A stretch of 64,000 bases of DNA from Thermococcus cleftensis (lineage in GTDB: Archaea > Methanobacteriota_B > Thermococci > Thermococcales > Thermococcaceae), in contig NC_018015.1 in assembly GCF_000265525.1 (NCBI RefSeq), positions 1,772,322-1,836,321 on the forward strand. The letters are read 5' to 3'. How positions within the stretch are numbered: position 1 is the stretch's first letter; every line of letters starts with the position of its first letter. Positions 11,327-52,649 of this stretch are shown one piece after another. Made by a program: the position numbers and the translations under genes. Below the pieces are notes generated by a model. That model searched no databases. It was not told the DNA's origin and saw only the letters and a program-made list of their open reading frames with translations.

Positions 11327-12076
11327 TCACTCCTCGACGCGCGGAGCGAGGAGGAATATCAGCCTGCCCTCGTCCCTTATTGGGTACTCCATCTGGAGGG
11401 GCATCTCGTTGCCGAAGCGGATTATCACCTCGTCTGCCTTGCCGATGCCCTTAATCATGTCGGCCAGGTAGCTGATTCCGTAGGCGCTCCTGGTTTCCTC
11501 CTCAACCTCAAGGTCGAGCAGGCCTTCGTCCTCAAGGGTGAGCTTAATCTCGACCTCGTTGGTTTCGCCTTCGGCCTTCATAACGAACTCGTTCTCGGTG
11601 GCTATGAACTTCATGGCATCGCTGACGAGGGAAGCGTCCTTGACGGCCTCCTTGAGAACCTCTCCGAGGACGACGACCTTGGCGGTGAAGGGAAGCTCCG
11701 GAAGGTCGAGCTCGAGCTCCTCAACCTCGATAAGCGGGAGCTTGAAGGTTCTCTTTGCCGTTCCCTCGAAGGTAATCTCAAGGAAGTTCTCGTCGCCCTT
11801 TCTGAGAATGAGCGTGTCCTTGTTCTTGCCACGCTTGAGTATCTTCTTGAAGTGGTCCATGTTGATTCCTATAGTTTCCTCTTCCTCCACCTCGTACTTG
11901 GAGAAGATGCTCTCCGGGAGATTTAGGTCGATGAGAACGACCCTGCTCGGGTCCATCGCGCGCATGCTTATACCTTCCTCGGTTATCTTGAAAGCCGCCT
12001 CGTCGATGAGGTTGCTCGCGGTGGCTATGAGATCGGCAAAGTCCTTGGCACCGTCAAAAACTATCTCGAACGGCAT
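11327..12076 (-). CDS. pcn: DNA polymerase sliding clamp PCNA
   Basis: Encodes 249 residues, the standard length. It begins MPFEIVFDGAKDFADLI, carries the DLNLPESIF and SRVVLIDL segments of the first domain, the acidic interdomain connecting loop (IEVEELELDLPELPF) that receives PIP boxes, and ends in the LIFLLAPR strand and EE tail. The homotrimer encircles DNA and tethers polymerase, ligase, FEN1 and RNase HII. A strong GGAGGGG ribosome site precedes the ATG. It is the third gene of the leftward TFS-PCNA-GINS operon. Confidence 0.98.
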   Translation of the reverse strand: MPFEIVFDGAKDFADLIATASNLIDEAAFKITEEGISMRAMDPSRVVLIDLNLPESIFSKYEVEEEETIGINMDHFKKILKRGKNKDTLILRKGDENFLEITFEGTAKRTFKLPLIEVEELELDLPELPFTAKVVVLGEVLKEAVKDASLVSDAMKFIATENEFVMKAEGETNEVEIKLTLEDEGLLDLEVEEETRSAYGISYLADMIKGIGKADEVIIRFGNEMPLQMEYPIRDEGRLIFLLAPRVEE

Positions 12077-39341: not shown

Positions 39342-40013
39342 ATGAACGTCCTGATCTTCGGTCCGCCCGGAAGCGGCAAGTCCACCCACTCGAGGACGAT
39401 AACGGAGCGCTACGGTCTTACCTACGTCTCCTCCGGGGACTTGATAAGGGCAGAGATAGAGAGGGGAAGCGAGCTGGGGAGGGAGCTTGAGGAGTACCTG
39501 GCAAGGGGAGAACTCATACCCGACACGGTCATCAATACCCTGATAATCTCAAGGCTCAGGAGGCACAGGAGGAACTTCCTCATAGACGGCTACCCCAGGA
39601 CGCCCGCCCAGGTGCTCGCCCTCGAGGAGTACCTTTACGACCACGGAATGACCTTGGACGTTGCGATGGAGATATTCATAACGAAGGAGGAGAGCGTGGA
39701 GCGCATAGCAGGGAGGAGGGTATGCCCGCGGTGCGGTGCGGTTTACCACGTGAAGTACAACCCTCCAAGGGTGCCGGGAAAGTGCGACCTCTGCGGTGCG
39801 GAACTGGTTCGGCGCGAAGACGACCGGCCCGAGGTAGTGGAGAGAAGGTACGACCTTTACTTGAAGAACATGGAACCGATAATCAAGTTCTACAAAAGGC
39901 AGGGGATATACGTCAGAATCGACGGCCACGACGGCATTCCCCAGGTGTGGGAGCGCATAAGGCCCCTCCTCGACTACATCAGCTCCCGCGAGTCTTTCCG
40001 AGGGCGCTCATAA
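39342..40013 (+). CDS. adk: Adenylate kinase, zinc-LID type
   Basis: Encodes 223 residues. GPPGSGKST is the P-loop, DGYPRTPAQ the AMP-binding segment, and CPRCG ... CDLCG (about residues 127-150) a four-Cys zinc site in the LID domain. It equilibrates ATP, ADP and AMP. A TTTATA box near 39303 and a GGGGG ribosome site precede the ATG. The last 35 bases overlap the convergent next gene. Confidence 0.96.
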   Translation: MNVLIFGPPGSGKSTHSRTITERYGLTYVSSGDLIRAEIERGSELGRELEEYLARGELIPDTVINTLIISRLRRHRRNFLIDGYPRTPAQVLALEEYLYDHGMTLDVAMEIFITKEESVERIAGRRVCPRCGAVYHVKYNPPRVPGKCDLCGAELVRREDDRPEVVERRYDLYLKNMEPIIKFYKRQGIYVRIDGHDGIPQVWERIRPLLDYISSRESFRGRS

Positions 40014-41359: not shown

Positions 41360-42051
41360 TGGAGTACTTCGATAAAATAGCGGGCAGGTACGACGAATGG
41401 TACAGAACGAAAACCGGCAGATACGTGGACAGAACTGAGAAGTGGCTGATTTTCTCCATGATGGAAACCAGAGGAGGCAAAGCCCTCGACCTCGGCTGTG
41501 GGACGGGCAACTACACGCTTGAGTTGAAGAAGAGGGGCTTCGACGTCATAGGCCTCGATGCAAGCGAGGGAATGCTCAGAATAGCCCGCTCCAAGGGGCT
41601 AAACTGTATCATGGGAGATGCCTACTCCCTCCCCTTCCCCGACGAGAGCTTCGACCTCGTGCTGAGCGTTACGATGTTCGAGTTCATTCACGAGCCCGAG
41701 AGGGTTCTGGCTGAGATCCACCGCGTCCTCAGGCCGGGGGGAGAGGTCATCATCGGGACGATGAACGGGAGGAGCCTGTGGTTCCTCCTCAAGCGCCTCA
41801 AGAGCATCTTTACCGAGACCGCCTATCGCTACGCCCGCTTCTACACGCCGGGCGAGCTTGAAGGCCTTCTCAGAAAAGCCGGCTTTATCGGTGTTGAGAG
41901 CGCTGGGATTATCTTCTTCCCCTCCTTCTGGCCCTTCATCGGCCTTGCGGAGAAGGTTGATAAGAAATGTTACAAAAAGTGCAAGAGTTTGGGAGCGTTC
42001 GTGGCTGTAAAGGGGAGAAAGGGGGCTGAAGCAATCAGCCCTCCCAGATGA
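41359..42051 (+). CDS. SAM-dependent methyltransferase, class I
   Basis: Encodes 230 residues. ALDLGCGTGNYTLELKKRGFDVIGLDASEGML is the SAM-binding motif I and acidic loop, FDLVLSVTMFEFIHEPERVLAEIHRVLRPGG covers motifs II and III. It looks like a UbiE/small-molecule type. The C-terminus is basic and Cys/Lys rich (KVDKKCYKKCKSLG). The target is unknown. It overlaps aglB tail to tail by 17 bases. Confidence 0.9.
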   Translation: MEYFDKIAGRYDEWYRTKTGRYVDRTEKWLIFSMMETRGGKALDLGCGTGNYTLELKKRGFDVIGLDASEGMLRIARSKGLNCIMGDAYSLPFPDESFDLVLSVTMFEFIHEPERVLAEIHRVLRPGGEVIIGTMNGRSLWFLLKRLKSIFTETAYRYARFYTPGELEGLLRKAGFIGVESAGIIFFPSFWPFIGLAEKVDKKCYKKCKSLGAFVAVKGRKGAEAISPPR

Positions 42052-44917
42052 CGTACTCCTTCTTTGCAATGAATATTGGCTCCACGCGCTTCTTGACTAT
42101 GACGACCTTGTCCTTCCCGTACTCCTGGTAGAGCTTCTCGATGTACGCGTCGAAAACATCGGACGGCATCGATGCCCGTGCGGTTATCACGTTGTCCCCT
42201 TCCCTGACGCTTAGCTCCTTGACCGGAACGTAGGTGATGATGTCCTGGTGGGGCACGAGGTAGAAGTTGTCGCTCTCGATGTCCTTGCCGTTGGGGGCGA
42301 CGTAGTAGACGATGCTCGCCCTCAAGGTAAGCGTTACGTCGTCGTAGTCCTTTCTGAATGCCGCCTTAAGCTCGAGCTGGCCGCTCTGGCCTTCCTCGAG
42401 TATGTAGCTCGGGTTCGCGGTTCTGCCGTCCACCCTCGGCTCGCCGTTGAGCACTCCAACGGGGCCGTCCTGAATGAGGACGAAGCGGTAGCTGGTGGCG
42501 TTCGGCACGAAGAGGCTGACCTCCACGGGGGTCTCGTTGAGGTGGTTCACGTTGAGGTTCTCGGCCAGCACCTCCCTCTTGATGAGCTCGGTGCCGTTGT
42601 AGGCCTCGAACACCAGGGTCGCGTCCTTGACGTCCCTGCCGAAGGCTGAAATCCAGAGTCTGAGCCTCTGCTCTCCGAGCGGGAGCTTTCCTCCTCCCAT
42701 CGTGCTGTAGAAGGCCTTCCAGGTGCCGTTCTCAAACCTGTCAATCCTGTAGACCGCGAACGGTCTGAACTCGTAGGTCGAGACGCCCCCGTCGTTGTGG
42801 ACCGGCTTGAAGTTGGCGAAGAGCTTTTGCGCGTCCCACGGCTCGAAGGAGTAGGGAATGTGGAACGCCAGCCTGACGAAGTTGCTGAAGGCTATCTTGT
42901 GGTACGCCAGAAGGCCGTAGTTGCCGAAGAGGTAGAGGACGTACGGAATGTCCCCCCTGCCCTGGATAACCTGTCCTCTGGCAAGGTCCACGGTCATTAC
43001 CGGCTGCCTGTCGCCCTCGGCCGTCTTGAGGTAGACGACCGTCTTCCCGCTCTCGTTGGCGTACTTGACGTACTGCATCGGCACGAGCTGGAACATCGGG
43101 ACGTGGCCGTACTCGTAGTAGTCTATCGCACCGCCGAGGTAGCTTATGGCGTTGAACTTGTAGATGTCCTGCTGCCAGACGATGAGGTAGTTAAGTTCCC
43201 ATGCCTCGAAGTCCTGCTCGCTCTCGTTGCCGTAGTGGGAGAAGAAATCTGCCAGCAGGTAGCGCCTGTCGTAGGCGTGACCACCGTCGGTCGAGGAGCG
43301 GCGGTTGCTGAGGAGACTCGACTCAATCCAGTAGCCGTAGTCCCACCAGCTGGTGGCGCTGTCGAGGGGGTGGCTGTTCTCCTTAAGCCAGGTGAGGGTG
43401 TTCACCCAGTCAGCCGGGACGGAACCCTGGGCCTTGGCGGTGTTAGTGGCCAGGGTCTTGCTGTACTGGGCGCCCATCACCGGGAGTGGGAGGAAGAGTA
43501 GTATCAGCAGGACGGCGTATAGTGCTTTGGTGGTCAGGCTCTCCTTCATGTTCTCCACGAAGAGGAAGACCTCGCCTATCGCTATGCCCGCCAGCAGGAG
43601 TATGGCTCCCGAAGCCTGGAAGACGAAACGGACTGCTAGTGCCAGTAGGACTACTGAACTAATGTAATAAGACACGAGGAAGGCATTTTTATAGCTGGAG
43701 ACGTTTCCTTTCCGGAGGTTGTTGATGAATTTGACTAGTACTACTAGGAACCCAACGATCGATAAGATGAACAGTAACATATCCTTGCTCTTTATGCTGT
43801 AATATGCCTTGATAGTGTTTATATCTGTCCTTGCCAGCTCTGCGACGGTTTGATAGAGGGGAGTGGATTGATACGCACCCCTTATTAATGCTGAAATATT
43901 GAGTAGACCCAGCAATCCTGCAAATATAACAAGTACCCCTCCGGATATTAGGAGTGCTCCGAGACGGTGCTCTAGTCTTGAGTAATCAAAATGCAAAAAG
44001 CGCTTTAGCCCTATGAGTAGCCCTGCATAAATTAAAACTGCAAATAGCCCCATTAGTCCAAATGGCCTTTTGAGAAGAAATGTTCCGATGCCGATAAAGC
44101 CGGTTCTGGCAATAATGATGCCTAAGACTATAGCAAGTCCCTGTATTGGTACGAATTCCTTGATGAACTTTATTGTAAACTTCTCGAGCCCAGCGATAAA
44201 TGCTACTGTTACAGTAAGGAACGCAAATGCAAGCAGTATCTCAATACCGAATACACTACCCGTCCATACTCCCATGTATAGGACGCTCGTGACCAGGAAC
44301 ATCACCGCGCTGAGCACCTTCTTCCAGTTCCACTCCTTCTCGTCGAGGTACACCAGCAGGAAGAGCACCGCGTAGAGGAAGAACATCATGAAGGGCCCTT
44401 CACCACGGTTGTTGCCGGACATAGTCTTGGTGAAGCTGGCGTAGGAGAACATCATGAAGGCCGATGCCCAGATTCCGGCCCAGTCAGAGTGGAGCTTCCT
44501 GCCGAGGAGATACACCGCTAGTACTGTCATCGCTCCCACGAAAGGCGGCCAGACCTTGAAGGCCTGGAGCTCGGTGTAGCCAAATAGCGCGTGGGTTACC
44601 TTGTAGAACACCGCCTGGACTGTGTAGAGGCCCAGGTAGCCGGTGGCTTTTATTCCTGCGGGCGGATCAGCGTAGGCGAAATACTGGGGAATCCACTCGG
44701 TTATGGCCTGCTTGTACATCTCATAGTGGAAAAACGTGTCCGGGTCGAGGAAGGTCTTGTAGTTGGAGGTTATGTTCCTCAGCTTGAAGCCGAGGTAGGC
44801 AAGCAGGAGCGCCAGGAGCGGGAGGCCGTAGGCCTTAAAAAGGGAGTAGTACCTGGAGAGGGAAGTTTCCTCTCCCTTCTTTTTCTTGCGCTTCTCCTTA
44901 ACGTCGGTCTTCACCAT
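42035..44917 (-). CDS. aglB: Oligosaccharyltransferase AglB (STT3)
   Basis: Encodes about 960 residues. It transfers a lipid-linked glycan to Asn in N-x-S/T sites on the outer face of the membrane. There are 12-13 helices in the first 480 residues, a DPD metal motif (LDPDTFFHYE, near residue 58), and the catalytic-domain signature WWDYGYW near residue 523, followed by a large external beta-rich domain. I start at 44917 after GAGGTGATTCC, ten bases after the GlmS stop. Bases about 43630-44285, coding for the central helices (residues about 211-429), are visibly AT-richer than the rest, which suggests a recombined segment. Confidence 0.96.
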   Translation of the reverse strand: MVKTDVKEKRKKKKGEETSLSRYYSLFKAYGLPLLALLLAYLGFKLRNITSNYKTFLDPDTFFHYEMYKQAITEWIPQYFAYADPPAGIKATGYLGLYTVQAVFYKVTHALFGYTELQAFKVWPPFVGAMTVLAVYLLGRKLHSDWAGIWASAFMMFSYASFTKTMSGNNRGEGPFMMFFLYAVLFLLVYLDEKEWNWKKVLSAVMFLVTSVLYMGVWTGSVFGIEILLAFAFLTVTVAFIAGLEKFTIKFIKEFVPIQGLAIVLGIIIARTGFIGIGTFLLKRPFGLMGLFAVLIYAGLLIGLKRFLHFDYSRLEHRLGALLISGGVLVIFAGLLGLLNISALIRGAYQSTPLYQTVAELARTDINTIKAYYSIKSKDMLLFILSIVGFLVVLVKFINNLRKGNVSSYKNAFLVSYYISSVVLLALAVRFVFQASGAILLLAGIAIGEVFLFVENMKESLTTKALYAVLLILLFLPLPVMGAQYSKTLATNTAKAQGSVPADWVNTLTWLKENSHPLDSATSWWDYGYWIESSLLSNRRSSTDGGHAYDRRYLLADFFSHYGNESEQDFEAWELNYLIVWQQDIYKFNAISYLGGAIDYYEYGHVPMFQLVPMQYVKYANESGKTVVYLKTAEGDRQPVMTVDLARGQVIQGRGDIPYVLYLFGNYGLLAYHKIAFSNFVRLAFHIPYSFEPWDAQKLFANFKPVHNDGGVSTYEFRPFAVYRIDRFENGTWKAFYSTMGGGKLPLGEQRLRLWISAFGRDVKDATLVFEAYNGTELIKREVLAENLNVNHLNETPVEVSLFVPNATSYRFVLIQDGPVGVLNGEPRVDGRTANPSYILEEGQSGQLELKAAFRKDYDDVTLTLRASIVYYVAPNGKDIESDNFYLVPHQDIITYVPVKELSVREGDNVITARASMPSDVFDAYIEKLYQEYGKDKVVIVKKRVEPIFIAKKEYVIWEG

Positions 44918-44927
44918 TGGAATCACC

Positions 44928-46736
44928 TCATTCAACGGTAACGGATTTCGCCAGGTTCCTCGGCTTGTCGGGGTCGTTGCCCCTCAACACCGCCAGGTGA
45001 TAAGCTAAAAGCTGGAGTGGAACAGCGTAAACTATCGGGGTCAGCAGCTCGTCCATCGGGGGCATCTGGACGAGAACGTCTGAGACCCTGCCCAGTTCTT
45101 CCCTGTCCCCGAGGCCTATTATGAAGGCTCCCCTGGCCCTTGACTCCTCTATGTTGCCGAGCATCTTCTCGAAGGTTTTCCCGCTCGGGGCTATCGCGAC
45201 GACCGGAACGCCCTCCTCGAGGAGCGCGAGGGGGCCGTGCTTCAGCTCGCCGGCGCTCAGCCCTTCCGCGTGAATGTAGCTTATCTCCTTGAGCTTTAGC
45301 GCCCCCTCGAGGGCGGTCGGCACGCTCACTCCTCTGCCTATGTAGAAGAAGTCGCTCTTTCCGGCCAGACCCTCGGCCAGCTCCCTTAGGGAGGCGTCGT
45401 GCTTCAGAACTTCCTCCATAAGCTCCGGGACCCTGCTCAGGCCATCTACAAGGGAGCTGAGGTATCCATCGTCCGCGGTTCCAAGAACCCTCGCGAGCTC
45501 TATCGCGAGCATCGTCAGAACAGCCAGCTGGGTGGTGTAGGTCTTGGTCGCGGCGACGCCTATTTCAGGCCCCGCGTGGGTGTAGAGCGTTAAGTCAGCT
45601 ATCCTCGTCGCCATGCTTCCGACGACGTTAACTATCGCGAGCACCTTGGCGCCCTTTCTCTTGGCCAGCTTCATCGCCGCGAGCGTATCAGCGGTTTCCC
45701 CGCTCTGGGTTATTGCTATCACCAAGGTGTCCTCGTCTATGACGTTCTCGAACTCATAGCGGAACTCGCTGGCGTCCTCGACTATCGGAACCCTGTTTGC
45801 CAGCCTCTGGAAGAGGTACTTGCCAACCAAGCCAGCGTGGTAGGAGGTGCCCATGGCGACGATGAAGACCTTCTCGTACCTCGCTATCTCCTCGGCGGCC
45901 TTTCTTACAGCATCGACGTTGCCGTGCATCGCGTCCCTAACTGCCCTCGGCTGCTCGTATATCTCCTTGAGCATGAAGTGCGGATAGCCGGCCTTCTCAG
46001 CCATTTCAAGGGTCCATTCCACCTCCCGGACTTCCTTCTCAACGGGTTCGCCCGTTTCGAGCTTCTTAACCACCCAGGAGTCCCGGGTTATGACCGCGTA
46101 CTCCATGTCGTCGAGGAAAACGACTTTGTTTGTGTACTCGAGGAAGGCCGGAACGTCGCTGGCCGCGAAGGTCTCCCCCTTCCCTATCCCCAGCACGAGC
46201 GGACTCTCGTTCCTGACGAAGTACAGCCTGTCCGGCTCATCGGCGTATATTATTCCCAGGGCGAAGGAACCCTTGAGCCTGAGGAGAGCCTTCCGCATGG
46301 CCTCTTCAAATGTCTCGCTGGATTTGAGCTCCTCCTCTATGAGGTGGGCTATTGTTTCGGTGTCGGTGTCGCTCCTGAAAGAGTGGCCCCTCTCGAGGAG
46401 GTAGTCCCTTATCTCGGAGAAGTTCTCAATGATACCGTTGTGAACGAGCGCTATCTTCCCGGTGCAGTCCGTATGGGGGTGAGCGTTAATGTCATTGGGA
46501 ACGCCGTGCGTCGCCCAGCGGGTGTGGCCGATACCCCTCCTGCCGGGCATTTCGAGGAATCCCAACTTCCCGGTAAGCTCGTCGATCTTCCCGGCGCCCT
46601 TCCTTATGAACAGCTTTCCTCCGTCCTCGGTCACGATTCCAGCCGAGTCGTAGCCCCTGTACTCCAGCCTCTTCAGCCCCTTGACTATTACCTCGCACGC
46701 TGGCCTGTCACCAACGTAGCCTATTATTCCACACAC
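44928..46736 (-). CDS. glmS: Glutamine:fructose-6-phosphate aminotransferase (isomerising)
   Basis: Encodes about 602 residues. The glutaminase domain begins [12 protein letters not shown], and its Cys must be the N-terminal nucleophile after Met removal, so I start at GTG 46736 directly before the TGT codon; GGTGG lies at good spacing. The two SIS isomerase domains follow ([17 protein letters not shown], ending NLAKSVTVE). It makes glucosamine-6-phosphate, the source of UDP-GlcNAc for the glycans that the next gene, aglB, transfers. A TATA box lies near 46784-46793. Confidence 0.97.
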
Positions 46737-46852
46737 GGCAACCACCCGCTGCTTTACTCTCTTCCCTGATAAACCGCCGGGAGTTAAAAGCCTTTCTCAG
46801 ACGCGGTTCCGGCGTTAATATAACCTTTGGTTCAACCGTCGATTGGGAAAAG

Positions 46853-46861
46853 CCTTTATAT
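46853..46861 (+). promoter_or_regulatory. TATA box of the 63-aa basic protein gene
   Basis: CCTTTATAT lies about 33 bases from the ATG at 46891, followed by a GGGGTGGACCG ribosome site. Confidence 0.55.
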
Positions 46862-46890
46862 CCCACTGACTATCCCGGTGGGGTGGACCG

Positions 46891-47082
46891 ATGGACAGAA
46901 AGCTCGACGAGTTCCTGGCTGGAGCGCCGAGAGCTACCAAAACGGCCGGGGTGAAGAGGAAGAAGAAACGCCTCAAATCGACGAGCCTCGACTCTTTTCT
47001 GCCGGAGGAACACGTGGACTACTTCAAACAGCTAAGGATAGGTTCCAAAAAGATACGGAACGCCAGGATAGAGGAGCTCTGA
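46891..47082 (+). CDS. Small basic protein with PIP-like motifs, PCNA inhibitor (TIP) candidate
   Basis: Encodes 63 residues. There is a basic centre ([10 protein letters not shown]) flanked by two short motifs resembling PCNA-interacting peptides: RKLDEFL at residues 3-9 and STSLDSFL at residues 30-37, close to the C-terminal SLDEFL of RNase HII in this window. A small Thermococcales inhibitor of PCNA (TIP) of about this size has been described in T. kodakarensis, and I recall its gene near glmS/STT3, but I could not compare sequences. It has a good promoter and ribosome site. Confidence 0.75.
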
Positions 47083-47131: not shown

Positions 47132-48280
47132 CTACAGCGACTCCGCTATAACCGCTCTGTCTCCAACTTTGAAGACGAAGGCCCTCCGCTCGCCCCTGAG
47201 GTTCGCCTCTATTCTCTTCCTGAGCCTCCAGTAGTCTTCCTGCGGGACGCTCATCTTGAGGGTCGCCCTTCCAAAGTTTTCCCTCCTGAGGAGGTCGTTA
47301 ATCCTGACCGGGTGAAACGGCAGAACCGCGACGACGGAGTAGGTCCTCTTGAGGTAGGGACTCTTCACCGGCTCGTCTCCAGTCGCTAAAACGCGCCTCT
47401 TCTCGCGGAGTAGCATCTTGGCGTCGGCCTTCAGCTCGTGGAAAAGCTCGTTGAGCAAATCAGCGTAATCAACGGCCTGCGGTATCTCGTAGAGGTACTG
47501 GCCGGGCTCCTCAGCCCACTCGACAATGTTCTCAAGGTTGGGGTCGCTCTCGAGCCTGACCCCTGCCGGAAGGATCACAGCGCTCCTTTCGGCCTTTGCG
47601 AGCGGTTCCGTGTAGAAGGTCAGCCTGTTGAGGTGGCCGTGGAGGTCGATGTACTCGAACTCGCCCCTCCAGGGCACCCTTTCGCGCCTCATCTGCGGCG
47701 GCAGGTCGAAGATGAAGGAGTCAGTCTTCGATTTATAGGCCCCGTAGACCTTGAGCGGGCTTGGGAGCAGATCCTCGAGCCTCCTCTCGGGCATCTCCGG
47801 CGGCCGGGCGGGGTCTGAAAAGATCACCTCCGCATCGACCCTCTCGACGGTCTCTGGAGCGAGGGAGTCGGCGTTTATGAACTCTATCTCAACGCCGTAT
47901 TTCTCGGCGTTCCTCCTCGCGAACTCTATCTTTAGGGGGTCTATGTCTATCCCGTAGGCCCTCTCGACCTTCATCGCGTAGAAGATGAGCTGTATCCCTA
48001 TCCCGCAGGAGACGTCGGCGATGCTCCTTATTCCAAACTCCTCAAGCCTTTCGGCGCGGTATCTGGCAACGATTTCGTGGGTCGCGTAGCGCAGACCCTC
48101 CAGGTCCATGAAAAGGTCGTCGCGCGAGAACTTGTCCTTTGCCCTTATCCTCGCCCTCGCTATCTCTGCTATAAGCTCCCAGTTCTCGCCGAGCCTCGCG
48201 CGGAGCTTCTTCTCGTCAAAACCTCGCCTTATGAGCTCCATTGCCTCCCCGATTTTCTCCTCGGTGATTCCCTCCAGCAT
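47132..48280 (-). CDS. SAM-dependent methyltransferase with THUMP-like tail
   Basis: Encodes 382 residues. The SAM site is IADVSCGIGIQLIFYAMKVERAYGIDIDPLKIEFARRNAEKYG, with FSDPARPPE as the motif IV active-site loop (D-P-A/P-R). The helical N-terminal 90 residues and the C-terminal YLKRTYSVVAVLPFHPVRINDLL domain match the COG4123/PG_1098-like group with a ferredoxin-like THUMP-related tail, so an RNA substrate is likely. It is a single gene; the divergent neighbour is a glycosyltransferase gene 59 bases away. Confidence 0.87.
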   Translation of the reverse strand: MLEGITEEKIGEAMELIRRGFDEKKLRARLGENWELIAEIARARIRAKDKFSRDDLFMDLEGLRYATHEIVARYRAERLEEFGIRSIADVSCGIGIQLIFYAMKVERAYGIDIDPLKIEFARRNAEKYGVEIEFINADSLAPETVERVDAEVIFSDPARPPEMPERRLEDLLPSPLKVYGAYKSKTDSFIFDLPPQMRRERVPWRGEFEYIDLHGHLNRLTFYTEPLAKAERSAVILPAGVRLESDPNLENIVEWAEEPGQYLYEIPQAVDYADLLNELFHELKADAKMLLREKRRVLATGDEPVKSPYLKRTYSVVAVLPFHPVRINDLLRRENFGRATLKMSVPQEDYWRLRKRIEANLRGERRAFVFKVGDRAVIAESL

Positions 48281-48339
48281 GTTTCCGCCTAAGGGGAGAG
48301 GCTTAAAAACGTTGCCCGCTTAGTTTGAGCGGTGGTAAG

Positions 48340-49728
48340 ATGGAATGGAGGAAAGCGGTGTTCCTTCTAATCGTCGTCATCACGCTCGCCGGTTCTTTTT
48401 GGTACCTCTACCGCTTCGCCTCCCAGCCGGTGTTCCACGACTACGTGAGCGATGAGGTGTGGTACGTCCCGGCCAGCAGGAACGTGCTCCACAGGCTCGG
48501 CATCGAGCTGACCTACATCAACGGGACGACCGGCTCGAGGGGAGTGAACGTAATCTTCGCCAACCAGAGCGTGAGGATAGAGTACCAGTACGAGGTGGAG
48601 AAGCTCGCGCTGAAGCACGGGGCGACTTACGAGAGGGAGTACCGCAAGTTTCCGGGCGTTTACTTCGAGATTCCGCCGGAGGAATACGGTCCTTTCATTG
48701 AAGATATCCGGGCAATGCTTCCCGACGGTGCATACAGCATCGTTCCCGGCTTCTGGTACCCCGACAAGGACAACATACAGAACTACCTGAACCTGGAACA
48801 CCCCTTCCTTGGAAAAGACATGATAATGCTCGGAATGCTTCTCCTCGGCGACAGCCCGATAAACTGGCGCCTTCCCGGAGTCCTTGCCTTCGTCCTGATA
48901 GAGCTCCTGGTGGTCATAGCCACCTATAAAATCAGCCGCAGCTACCTCGCGGCGCTTATAGCTCTGGCCTTCACCGCCGGCGACCCAACGCTCCAGGCGA
49001 TGTCTGTGGTGGCTATGCTCGATATTCACGTGGCCCTCTTCGTTGCGCTCTTCATAGCCCTCCTCGCCCTCAACAGGGACCGTCTGGCCGCGGTCGCTGT
49101 CGGCCTGGCGGGGGCGGCCAAGCTGAGCGGTGCCTTCGGCTGGCCGGTTCTTCTGGCCAGGGCGTTTCGGAGGGAGAGAAGTGTCCTGGGCTTTTTGGGC
49201 ACGATAGCCCTCCTCCCCGCCCTGGGCTTCCTGGTACCGAACCTTCCGGCAATGGTCGCTGTTGGTCCGGAGGAGTGGTTAAAGCAGTTCCTGGGGAGCT
49301 TCCGCTGGCACCTCTCCAGCAAGGGCGGCCACCCTGCCGCTTCACCGGTCTGGCAGTGGTTCGTCAATGCCAGGGCATTCCCGCTCCACTACGACCCCAA
49401 CGTCTTCGCCCAGACGGACCCGTTCCTCCTCCTCGCGATGGTTCTCTTCCTTCTGGCCCTTCCCTGGCTTTACAGGAGAAGGAGGGGAATCCTTACCGTC
49501 ATGGGCGTCTTCTGGAGCACCACGGGCTTTTTCCTCCTCCAGTACCTACTCGGTGGGACAACGCAGTTCAGCTTCTACGCCACCGTCTTGGTTCCCCCTG
49601 CGGCTGTGGCGATGGGCGTGGCGCTGAGGGAGCTCCTCCGCTGGGAGGCCTTTACCGAATCCCTCCGGCTCTACCTGGAGTGGCTCCTCGAGGCGAAGGA
49701 TAGGGTAAGGCTGAGGCTGGGGAGGTGA
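48340..49728 (+). CDS. GT-C glycosyltransferase (dolichyl-phosphate-mannose type, PMT-like)
   Basis: Encodes about 462 residues with about ten membrane helices. The first external loop holds the acidic motif HDYVSDEVWYVPASRNV (paired Asp/Glu as in GT39 enzymes), which suggests use of a lipid-phosphate sugar donor outside the membrane. An unusually long loop of about 100 residues precedes the second helix. I start at ATG 48340 with GGTGGTAAG upstream; TTG 48325 is in frame. Its proximity to glmS-aglB fits glycan assembly, but the acceptor is unknown. Confidence 0.87.
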   Translation: MEWRKAVFLLIVVITLAGSFWYLYRFASQPVFHDYVSDEVWYVPASRNVLHRLGIELTYINGTTGSRGVNVIFANQSVRIEYQYEVEKLALKHGATYEREYRKFPGVYFEIPPEEYGPFIEDIRAMLPDGAYSIVPGFWYPDKDNIQNYLNLEHPFLGKDMIMLGMLLLGDSPINWRLPGVLAFVLIELLVVIATYKISRSYLAALIALAFTAGDPTLQAMSVVAMLDIHVALFVALFIALLALNRDRLAAVAVGLAGAAKLSGAFGWPVLLARAFRRERSVLGFLGTIALLPALGFLVPNLPAMVAVGPEEWLKQFLGSFRWHLSSKGGHPAASPVWQWFVNARAFPLHYDPNVFAQTDPFLLLAMVLFLLALPWLYRRRRGILTVMGVFWSTTGFFLLQYLLGGTTQFSFYATVLVPPAAVAMGVALRELLRWEAFTESLRLYLEWLLEAKDRVRLRLGR

Positions 49729-49778: not shown

Positions 49779-51150
49779 TTTATTCATTGACCGGGAGAGG
49801 GAGCTGGAAATACTCGGGAGGGAATGGGAGAGGGTCCCCTCGTTCGTTGTGGTCTACGGCAGGAGAAGGGTTGGAAAGACGAGACTACTGGTGGAGTTTT
49901 CCCGTGGAAGAAAGGTTTTCTTCCACACCTTTACCGAGGGCACGAAGGAAAACCAGATAAAGGGTATTCGGGAAGAGCTCGCCGAGTTTTATGGGGACGA
50001 TATCTTCTTGAGCTTCAATGACTGGTATCCTCTCTTCAAATACCTCTCCTCCAGGGTAGAGGAAAAAACCCTCGTGGTGCTCGACGAGTTCACGTACGCC
50101 GTTAAAAGTGACAGGGGTATTTTGAGTGCCCTCCAGAGGGCCTGGGACCACGAACTCAGCAAGAAACCCATCATGCTCGTTCTCTCAGGTTCTCTGATGG
50201 GCATGATGGTTGATGACGTGCTCAGCTACTCTTCGCCCCTCTACGGCAGACGGACCGCTGGATTCATGCTCAGGCCGTTAAACCTGTTCAACTCTGTAAG
50301 GTTCTTTGATGACTTCCGGAACGGCCTTGAGAGCTACATGCTCGTTGGTGGAGTCCCGGCGTATCTTTCGATAGCGGCCCGTTATTCCGATGTCCACCGG
50401 CTCGTTGAGAACGAGTTTTTATCCCCCGACGGCTTTTTCTACGATGAACCCTACATCATTCTCTCCCAGGAACTCAGGGAACTGAAGTTCTACTTCTCAA
50501 TACTCGCTGCCATAGCCGAGGGCCGGGAGAGGCCGGGCGAGATAGCCACATACGTGGGTGTCGAGGGAAGGAGGATATATCCCTACCTGGAGACGTTGAT
50601 ACGCCTTGGCTTCGTTGAGCGCCAGCTCCCAGTTGCGAGAAAAGAAAAGAGAGGACGTTACAGGATTAAAGACCCAATGCTCCTCACCTGGTTCTCGCTG
50701 GTCCACTCCAACAGGACGGAGATAGAACTTGGGATTCTCAGCCGGGAGGACGTCGAGGAGAGGCTCCAGAAGGTCTTTTCAAGGCGGTTTGAAGAAGTCT
50801 CAAAGGAGTTTCTTATAGAACTAAATCATGTCGGGGGACTTCCCTTCCGCTTCACCAAGATTGGAAGGTGGTGGCACAAAGGGGAGGAGATTGACTTGGT
50901 GGCTTTGAATGAAAGGGAGAAGAATGCTCTGTTCGTCGAGGTCAAGTGGAAAGACCTGAGTGAGAGGGAAGCGCGGGAGATTTTGAAGGACGTGAAGAGG
51001 AAGGCAGAGCTGGTTGGTCTGGGGCATTGGGATAAAAGTTACGGCATAGTTGCGAAGAACATAGAAGGAAAAGAGACGTTAAGGGCTGAAGGCTGGCTGG
51101 TCTGGGATCTGGAGGACTTCGAACTCATTTCAAGAACTCGTCCAGACTGA
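49771..51150 (+). CDS. Archaeal ATPase with DUF234 domain
   Basis: Encodes 459 residues. The N-terminal ATPase_2 (STAND/MNS-like) domain has Walker A GRRRVGKTRLL and Walker B TLVVLDEFTYAV, and LVLSGSLMGMM as sensor; then a winged-helix-like part (ERPGEIATYVGVEGRRIYPYLETLIRLGFVERQ) and a C-terminal DUF234 domain with a PD-(D/E)xK-like core (HKGEEIDLVALNEREKNALFVEVKWKD: D, then E-V-K). The families are abundant in Thermococcales and of unknown role, possibly in defence or mobile DNA. It overlaps RNase HII tail to tail by 26 bases. Confidence 0.92.
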   Translation: MISLFIDRERELEILGREWERVPSFVVVYGRRRVGKTRLLVEFSRGRKVFFHTFTEGTKENQIKGIREELAEFYGDDIFLSFNDWYPLFKYLSSRVEEKTLVVLDEFTYAVKSDRGILSALQRAWDHELSKKPIMLVLSGSLMGMMVDDVLSYSSPLYGRRTAGFMLRPLNLFNSVRFFDDFRNGLESYMLVGGVPAYLSIAARYSDVHRLVENEFLSPDGFFYDEPYIILSQELRELKFYFSILAAIAEGRERPGEIATYVGVEGRRIYPYLETLIRLGFVERQLPVARKEKRGRYRIKDPMLLTWFSLVHSNRTEIELGILSREDVEERLQKVFSRRFEEVSKEFLIELNHVGGLPFRFTKIGRWWHKGEEIDLVALNEREKNALFVEVKWKDLSEREAREILKDVKRKAELVGLGHWDKSYGIVAKNIEGKETLRAEGWLVWDLEDFELISRTRPD

Positions 51151-51823
51151 CCTGTCCTTTTTTCTTCGATTTCTTGGCCTTCATCTCGACCCTCAGCTTC
51201 TCCTCGATCTTCTTTAACGTTTTCCAGCTCCGCCTGACTATCGGAGGGAACGTGCCGTGTTCGCGGTAGTAGTTCTCGAGGAACGCCCTCGTCCTCGGGT
51301 CGCTGGGATAGCCCGAGCCTATCTCTCCGTACTCCTCCTTCAGCTTCTCTATCGCCCTATCGCGGGTGACCTTCGCGAGGATTGATGCAGCAGAAACCGG
51401 CACGAACTTGTCGTCCGCCTTGTGCTCCGCGATTATCTCCGCCTCGAAGTCCAGCCCCTTCCTGATCTCTTCACCAAAGCGGGCCTCCTTCACGTCTGCG
51501 GCGTCGATGTAAACCACATCGGGCTTGACCTTGAGTGAATTGAGGGCCTTAACGAAGTTCTCGACCTCGAACTCGTTGAGCGTGCCCCCGCGGGAGTCAA
51601 TCTCCCCAGGCCATAATTCAAGAATTACATAATCATCTAAAAGCTGCACTATCTCATCGAACAGCCTTTCTCTCCTCTTCGGAGTGAGCTTCTTCGAGTC
51701 CTTAACCCCGAGCTCCTCGAGCCTCGGGACGTTCACCTCATCGAGGACGACCGCCGCTATGACCATCGGCCCTATCACCGGCCCCCTGCCGGCCTCGTCT
51801 ATTCCAGCCAGCTTCCTGCCCAA
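51125..51823 (-). CDS. rnhB: Ribonuclease HII with C-terminal PIP-like box
   Basis: Encodes 232 residues. GIDEAGRGPVIGPMV holds catalytic Asp and Glu, VKDSKKL and the DPRTRAFLENYY segment complete the active site, which removes RNA from RNA-DNA hybrids, including single ribonucleotides. The last nine residues QVSLDEFLK fit a PCNA-interacting peptide (Q-x-x-L-x-x-F-L). The start is TTG 51823, with GGAGGTGAAATC upstream; the frame further upstream lies inside the permease gene. It is four bases downstream of the metal permease. Confidence 0.96.
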   Translation of the reverse strand: MGRKLAGIDEAGRGPVIGPMVIAAVVLDEVNVPRLEELGVKDSKKLTPKRRERLFDEIVQLLDDYVILELWPGEIDSRGGTLNEFEVENFVKALNSLKVKPDVVYIDAADVKEARFGEEIRKGLDFEAEIIAEHKADDKFVPVSAASILAKVTRDRAIEKLKEEYGEIGSGYPSDPRTRAFLENYYREHGTFPPIVRRSWKTLKKIEEKLRVEMKAKKSKKKGQVSLDEFLK

Positions 51824-51827
51824 GATT

Positions 51828-52649
51828 TCACCTCCTGAAGAGCAGAGCGCCATAGATGACGCCCAGCATTATCGTGGCTATACCGCTCGGGGGAATGTCA
51901 GTGAAGTATGCCAGCAGGACCGAGGAGAGCTGGACGCCAAGAGTTAGGAAGAGGCTGACCGCGATGACTTTCCTCATGTCGCTGCTCACCATCAGCGCTA
52001 TCGCCCCCGGCAGAATCGCCACCACCTGGAGGGTTATCAGCCCGACGGTCTGGACGATTAAAGCTCCAATCGCGCCGACGAGAACGTAGAGTATCATCAG
52101 GTACGCCCTCACGTTGCCGCCATAGCTTTCCATTCCCTCCGGGTCGAAGCTTAGGTAGAGAAAGTCGCGGTAAAGGAAGAGAATCACGAAGAACAGGAAC
52201 GCACCGCCGAGGACGAGGGCGGTTAAGTCGTTGAGGGTTATGAGAAATATGTCGCCGGTCAGGTAGGACACTATGCTCTCGCCGAGCGGGAAGTAAGGCC
52301 TGCTCGCCATCACCTTGTAGAGGACGCCGAAGCCGAGAACCGTAAGGCCTGCCACGAAGCTCGCCACTATCCCAACCGCGGAATCGGGGGAAAAGCCGAG
52401 CTTCTCCAGGTGGGCGATTAGCAGGACTAGGGCCACGGTCACGATGAGGGCGACCAGGGTAACCAGGGACAGGTTTTCGAAGACGAGGCCGAGTATCATT
52501 CCCAGGACGGCACCGAAGAGGAGGGAGTGGAAGAGCGCGTGGGTGAGGAATGCCAGCCCCTTCGCGTTGATGAGCGGGCTGAGGAGGCCCAGGAGAACGC
52601 TGACCATCACGCTCGCCAGGAGGGCCCTTACGAGGTACTCCGGTATCAC
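51828..52649 (-). CDS. znuB: Metal ABC transporter permease (ZnuB/MntB type)
   Basis: Encodes 273 residues with about eight to nine helices of the ABC-3 family. SPLINAKGLAFLTHALFHSLLFGAVLG, GESIVSYLTGDIFLI and the coupling region PEGMESYGGNVRAYL are typical. It forms the membrane channel of a zinc or manganese importer. The GTG start overlaps the ATPase stop by four bases (GTGA), so translation is coupled. Confidence 0.93.
   Translation of the reverse strand: MIPEYLVRALLASVMVSVLLGLLSPLINAKGLAFLTHALFHSLLFGAVLGMILGLVFENLSLVTLVALIVTVALVLLIAHLEKLGFSPDSAVGIVASFVAGLTVLGFGVLYKVMASRPYFPLGESIVSYLTGDIFLITLNDLTALVLGGAFLFFVILFLYRDFLYLSFDPEGMESYGGNVRAYLMILYVLVGAIGALIVQTVGLITLQVVAILPGAIALMVSSDMRKVIAVSLFLTLGVQLSSVLLAYFTDIPPSGIATIMLGVIYGALLFRR

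Follow-up and report, generated by a model that had tools for sequence, protein, structure and literature searches.

The open reading frame at 46891-47082 on the plus strand of the window, that is, of the whole 64,000-nucleotide stretch of Thermococcus cleftensis DNA that was analysed, is identified by its sequence as an ortholog of TIP, the Thermococcales inhibitor of PCNA. It is a member of an already known protein, to which the window adds only one more sequence. The frame of 192 nt starts with ATG, contains no internal stop and encodes a 63-aa protein (MDRKLDEFL...EEL) with 17 K+R residues against 9 D+E, and the assignment of the gene tip was made from the translation, the PDB and NCBIfam matches and the order-wide presence. 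In the phmmer search against PDB, residues 1-63 were aligned on residues 1-64 of the chain 5da7_B, "Thermococcales inhibitor of PCNA", with E 1e-22, and the only other PDB matches up to E 10 were eIF2-beta chains (E 0.045 and 9.6) aligned on lysine-rich stretches. The NCBIfam equivalog NF041142 (PCNA_Inhib) was matched over profile positions 1-65 of 65 with 110.4 bits against the 90-bit cut-off, and the Pfam search of the protein gave no match. Within the genus, the genome G023 has a locus, L030, whose translation agrees with the 5da7_B chain in every residue and is 68% identical to the window protein; from this identical chain and the two PCNAs of G023, we infer that it is the T. kodakarensis genome. 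The T. kodakarensis TIP presumably corresponds to TK0808, the label that was used in the initial annotation. The window protein and chain B of 5DA7 have in common the whole length, both LDxF[LI] motifs, the K/R-rich centre and a 24-residue terminal part, whereas the window protein is one residue shorter and differs in the linker.

Two PIP-like motifs, RKLDEFL (residues 3-9) and STSLDSFL (residues 30-37), are separated by a lysine- and arginine-rich stretch. The initial annotation, which had proposed a basic 63-aa protein with two PIP-like motifs flanking a lysine-rich centre and akin to TIP, was thus borne out by the intact frame, the charge composition, the order of the motifs, the alignment of all 63 residues with the TIP chain of 5DA7 and the NF041142 membership, and the likeness it had seen to the end of RNase HII is also real, as the RNase HII of the window (51125-51853, minus strand; Pfam E 3.8e-50) does terminate in SLDEFLK. 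The LDxFL core is common to both proteins; however, RNase HII has one motif, the C-terminal PIP box at the end of an enzyme, and TIP has two and no Pfam domain. The canonical PIP box opens with Gln, which is absent from both TIP motifs. When the 62 residues after Met were shuffled 200,000 times, the pattern [LIM][DE]x[FYW][LIFM], which had been picked once the 63-aa protein had been seen, occurred at least once in 1.7% and at least twice in 0.006% of the shuffles. Among the 397 ORFs of at least 40 aa in the window, 11 contain at least one such motif and 2 at least two, the second of these being 39342-40013.

Conservation of the motifs and of the following helix

The alignment comprised 62 loci, each from a different one of the 90 genomes with a match, with six genera and 59 distinct proteins; the loci had been located by tblastn or by the profile, a motif pattern served to select the ORF with its start, and six loci missed by this pattern were recovered with looser ones, so that a protein was obtained from 62/62, with ATG at the chosen start in every locus. 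All 59 distinct proteins carry the first motif (M-x(1,3)-[LI]D[DE][FY][LIMF]), the second motif (L[DE]xFLP) and the helix core, and between the F/Y of the first motif and the L of the second there are 23-29 residues. L33, F36 and L37 with the next residue, P38, are invariant in all 59, and the invariant residues of TIP lie, apart from Met1, within the PIP-like motifs and the helix.

The N-terminal PIP-like motif (DRKLDEFL, codons 2-9, 46894-46917, plus strand, as for all the following segments) showed a pN/pS of 0.19, the variable linker (codons 10-21, 46918-46953) 0.82, the K/R-rich stretch (codons 22-29, 46954-46977), of which the last part, KKRLK, is conserved, 0.27, the second motif (STSLDSFL, codons 30-37, 46978-47001), delimited from the ortholog alignment, 0.31, the helix 0.17 and the tail 0.29, and only the linker contrast is meaningful among these values, because the pairs of related sequences are not independent and pS, at 0.70-0.90, is close to saturation. 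The linker evolves almost freely, and both motifs are under strong constraint.

A conserved block of 19 residues (codons 38-56, 47002-47058) follows the second motif and lies inside the helix predicted over residues 39-62 by a single-sequence fold model, which was used for helix placement only, its mean pLDDT of 71.5 and pTM of 0.25 being modest; the same model places a short helix over the first motif (residues 3-10). The block is probably the PCNA-binding helix, as judged from its conservation, this model and the published helix (PMC6204406). The hydrophobic moment of residues 39-55 was reached by 21% of shuffles, in none of the 59 distinct orthologs did the moment of the 17 residues after FLP exceed 95% of the shuffles made from that protein, and the moment of L030 over these 17 residues was likewise not above its shuffles; the published amphipathic character of the helix was therefore not reproduced here, which tells against a simple picture of its action.

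Proposed action on PCNA and alternative readings

According to PMC4929162, T. kodakarensis TIP was found through co-purification with PCNA, binds both PCNAs of that organism and inhibits in vitro the stimulation of PolB and Fen1. An N-terminal PIP was proposed there from an alignment of 26 sequences, and residues 2-8 and 35-38 were implicated in PCNA binding by HDX-MS. In the crystal structure, TIP was described as covering the surface of PCNA close to the connector loop with a non-canonical PIP and, after it, an amphipathic helix of 17 residues, and as breaking the trimer (PMC6204406). In further published work TIP was reported as partly disordered when alone, whereas in the complex it contacts the PCNA domains I and II and blocks the trimer assembly (PMC10506467). 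The presence of an N-terminal PIP and of two contact regions in TIP is, accordingly, already in print. In the numbering of the 5da7_B sequence, the second motif of the 64-aa ortholog has its DSFL at residues 35-38, and both LDxFL-like motifs of the window protein match the HDX regions 2-8 and 35-38 of PMC4929162. Constraint on the N-terminal motif equals or exceeds that on the second, which gives weight to the N-terminal PIP proposed in that work.

The PCNA of the window (11327-12076, minus strand) shares 91% identity with the one at G023:C1:456845, and its match to the PCNA chain common to 3lx1, 5da7 and 5dai has E 3.6e-142; the window protein would act on this PCNA, by analogy, as the ortholog does on its own. 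In the eight genomes searched for PCNA, the window genome yielded one match, in contrast with the two of G023 (91% and 55% identical to that of the window); G093 yielded two (86% and 39%) and the other five genomes one each. Since one-PCNA and two-PCNA genomes both have TIP, it is present with or without a second PCNA. The second PCNA of G093 (locus L097, G093:C26:4412-5140), which belongs to another genus of the family, is the divergent one with 39% identity and is comparable with the second PCNA of G023.

We consider it almost certain that the window gene encodes a TIP ortholog, whose second motif and helix would, by analogy with T. kodakarensis, open the PCNA ring, with the N-terminal motif as a second contact. 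The second motif (residues 30-37) would correspond to the non-canonical PIP seen in the crystal, because it precedes the long predicted helix. In the proposed mechanism this small basic protein would switch PCNA off. If it behaves like its T. kodakarensis homologue, STSLDSFLP and the following helix would bind PCNA close to the interdomain connector loop and thereby displace the two PCNA domains, which would open the trimeric ring and abolish the stimulation of PolB, Fen1 and other partners, while RKLDEFL, carried on the flexible linker, would provide the second conserved contact with PCNA. The initial annotation had suggested that the protein could bridge or block the clamp, and of these two the blocking agrees with the published work on TIP as far as it is represented by PMC4929162, PMC6204406 and PMC10506467. 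Against a switching-off of PCNA in the cell stands the report that T. kodakarensis TIP is non-essential and that its loss brings no added sensitivity to UV, MMS or MMC, and the in vivo function of TIP is called unclear in the 2016 review (PMC4929162).

A two-step action is a conceivable, if rather tentative, elaboration, in which the N-terminal PIP would dock on the intact ring and the second motif with the helix would then break it. The freely tethered N-terminal PIP would take a pocket of the intact ring, possibly displacing a partner, and the second motif and the helix would next invade the same or a neighbouring interface. If this were true, TIP would be a partly disordered, 63-residue, ATP-independent clamp opener acting beside RFC-driven unloading or replacing it. 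TIP, a small protein of natural origin, is reported to break the PCNA ring, and the conservation singles out L5/F8 against L33/F36 as the residues for separating the docking from the ring breaking.

A rather improbable alternative is a bivalent linker, with the two motifs held in the PIP pockets of two subunits of one ring or of two rings, and not both on one monomer. The two conserved motifs and the 23-29 mostly variable residues between them, a distance that should in principle be long enough for neighbouring pockets, are in its favour, and both regions of the ortholog were implicated in PCNA binding by HDX (PMC4929162); however, the HDX effects on both regions are also compatible with contacts on one monomer, and in the published complex TIP touches the domains I and II and prevents the trimer assembly (PMC10506467). 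That the protein is mainly a basic DNA- or RNA-binding one, with PCNA binding as a secondary property, is highly improbable despite the excess of K+R over D+E and the conserved last part of the K/R-rich centre, as the placement of the invariant residues in the PIP-like motifs and the helix, Met1 apart, and the discovery of the ortholog by PCNA co-purification (PMC4929162) speak against it.

Distribution of the gene

The window genome contains one TIP match at the E threshold of 0.001. In the order Thermococcales, single-copy TIP was found in 90/94 genomes, with six of six genera covered; the best match per genome had E of 2.8e-13 or less, and the second matches, where listed, had E of at least 0.07. 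The four genomes of the order with no match (G051, G053, G066, G085) are 53-88% complete, and TIP is present in 74/74 of the high-quality ones (completeness of 90% or more, contamination of 5% or less). In the phylum-wide profile search, 88 of the 115 genomes exceeded the NF041142 cut-off, all within the order Thermococcales, inside which G056 (85.6 bits) and G045 (66.2 bits, profile positions 22-65 only) fell below it.

Outside Thermococcales the phylum was represented by 21 genomes, none of which reached the cut-off; seven of them gave weak matches, the best two of which were inspected, in G096 and G111 (the other five were in G099, G101, G106, G110 and G113). The match of G096 (21.7 bits) lies inside an unrelated-looking 334-aa protein holding NIDEFLENKHWEY and is not TIP; nor is that of G111 (20.1 bits), which runs across a stop codon. 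Beyond the phylum the scope was 14 control genomes and the genome_contigs collection, searched by pattern. Weak matches, all under the cut-off, occurred in three of the control genomes, and the genome_contigs scan yielded 82 candidate stretches with 25 confirmed loci, whose titles name Thermococcus, Thermococcaceae, Thermococcales or, for some, only Thermococci. The tblastn search of plasmids and phages gave no TIP relative, and of the 53 stretches of viral contigs that fit the pattern none was confirmed as TIP. TIP was published as restricted to Thermococcales (PMC4929162), and this restriction holds among the genomes searched here.

Promoter and gene neighbourhood

The TATA-like element CCTTTATATCCC (46853-46864, plus strand), with TTTATA at -36 to -31 from the ATG, stands upstream of tip, and 57 of the 62 orthologs have a TATA-like hexamer 26-45 nt ahead of the ATG, against 2.4% of shuffled upstream sequences, which upholds the earlier suggestion that the gene has its own promoter. 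A TATA-like box is present at L030 too, the gene for the chain identical to 5da7_B. The stretch GGTGGGGTGG (46877-46886, plus strand) is likely a Shine-Dalgarno sequence; GGGTGG is the majority upstream sequence of the orthologs. The sigma-70 scan, whose model is not applicable to an archaeon, gave no promoter at tip, as expected, and one terminator-like site was found on the minus strand at 47153-47130, about as many as in shuffles (mean 0.8).

By Pfam, the divergent gene upstream of tip is glmS (SIS and glutamine amidotransferase domains; 44928-46745), and the convergent one downstream encodes a methyltransferase-domain protein of 382 aa (47132-48280, minus strand); this arrangement makes it probable that tip has a transcript of its own. 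In the 47132-48280 protein the Pfam matches cover only residues 84-156 with E 0.001, which leaves the greater part of it without an assignment. Within about 1.5 kb of tip, glmS occurs at 51 of the 62 loci, the methyltransferase at 53, both at 47 and neither at 5 (L076 and L083-L086), and among the loci missing one or both neighbours a contig end truncates only L025. The divergent intergenic region from the longest glmS frame to tip has 145 bp (46746-46890). As glmS adjoins tip in 51/62 loci, the divergent promoters of the two genes may share control. Near glmS lie an oligosaccharyltransferase with OST/STT3 Pfam domains (42035-44935) and a GT87-like glycosyltransferase (48325-49728), which possibly make up an N-glycosylation neighbourhood.
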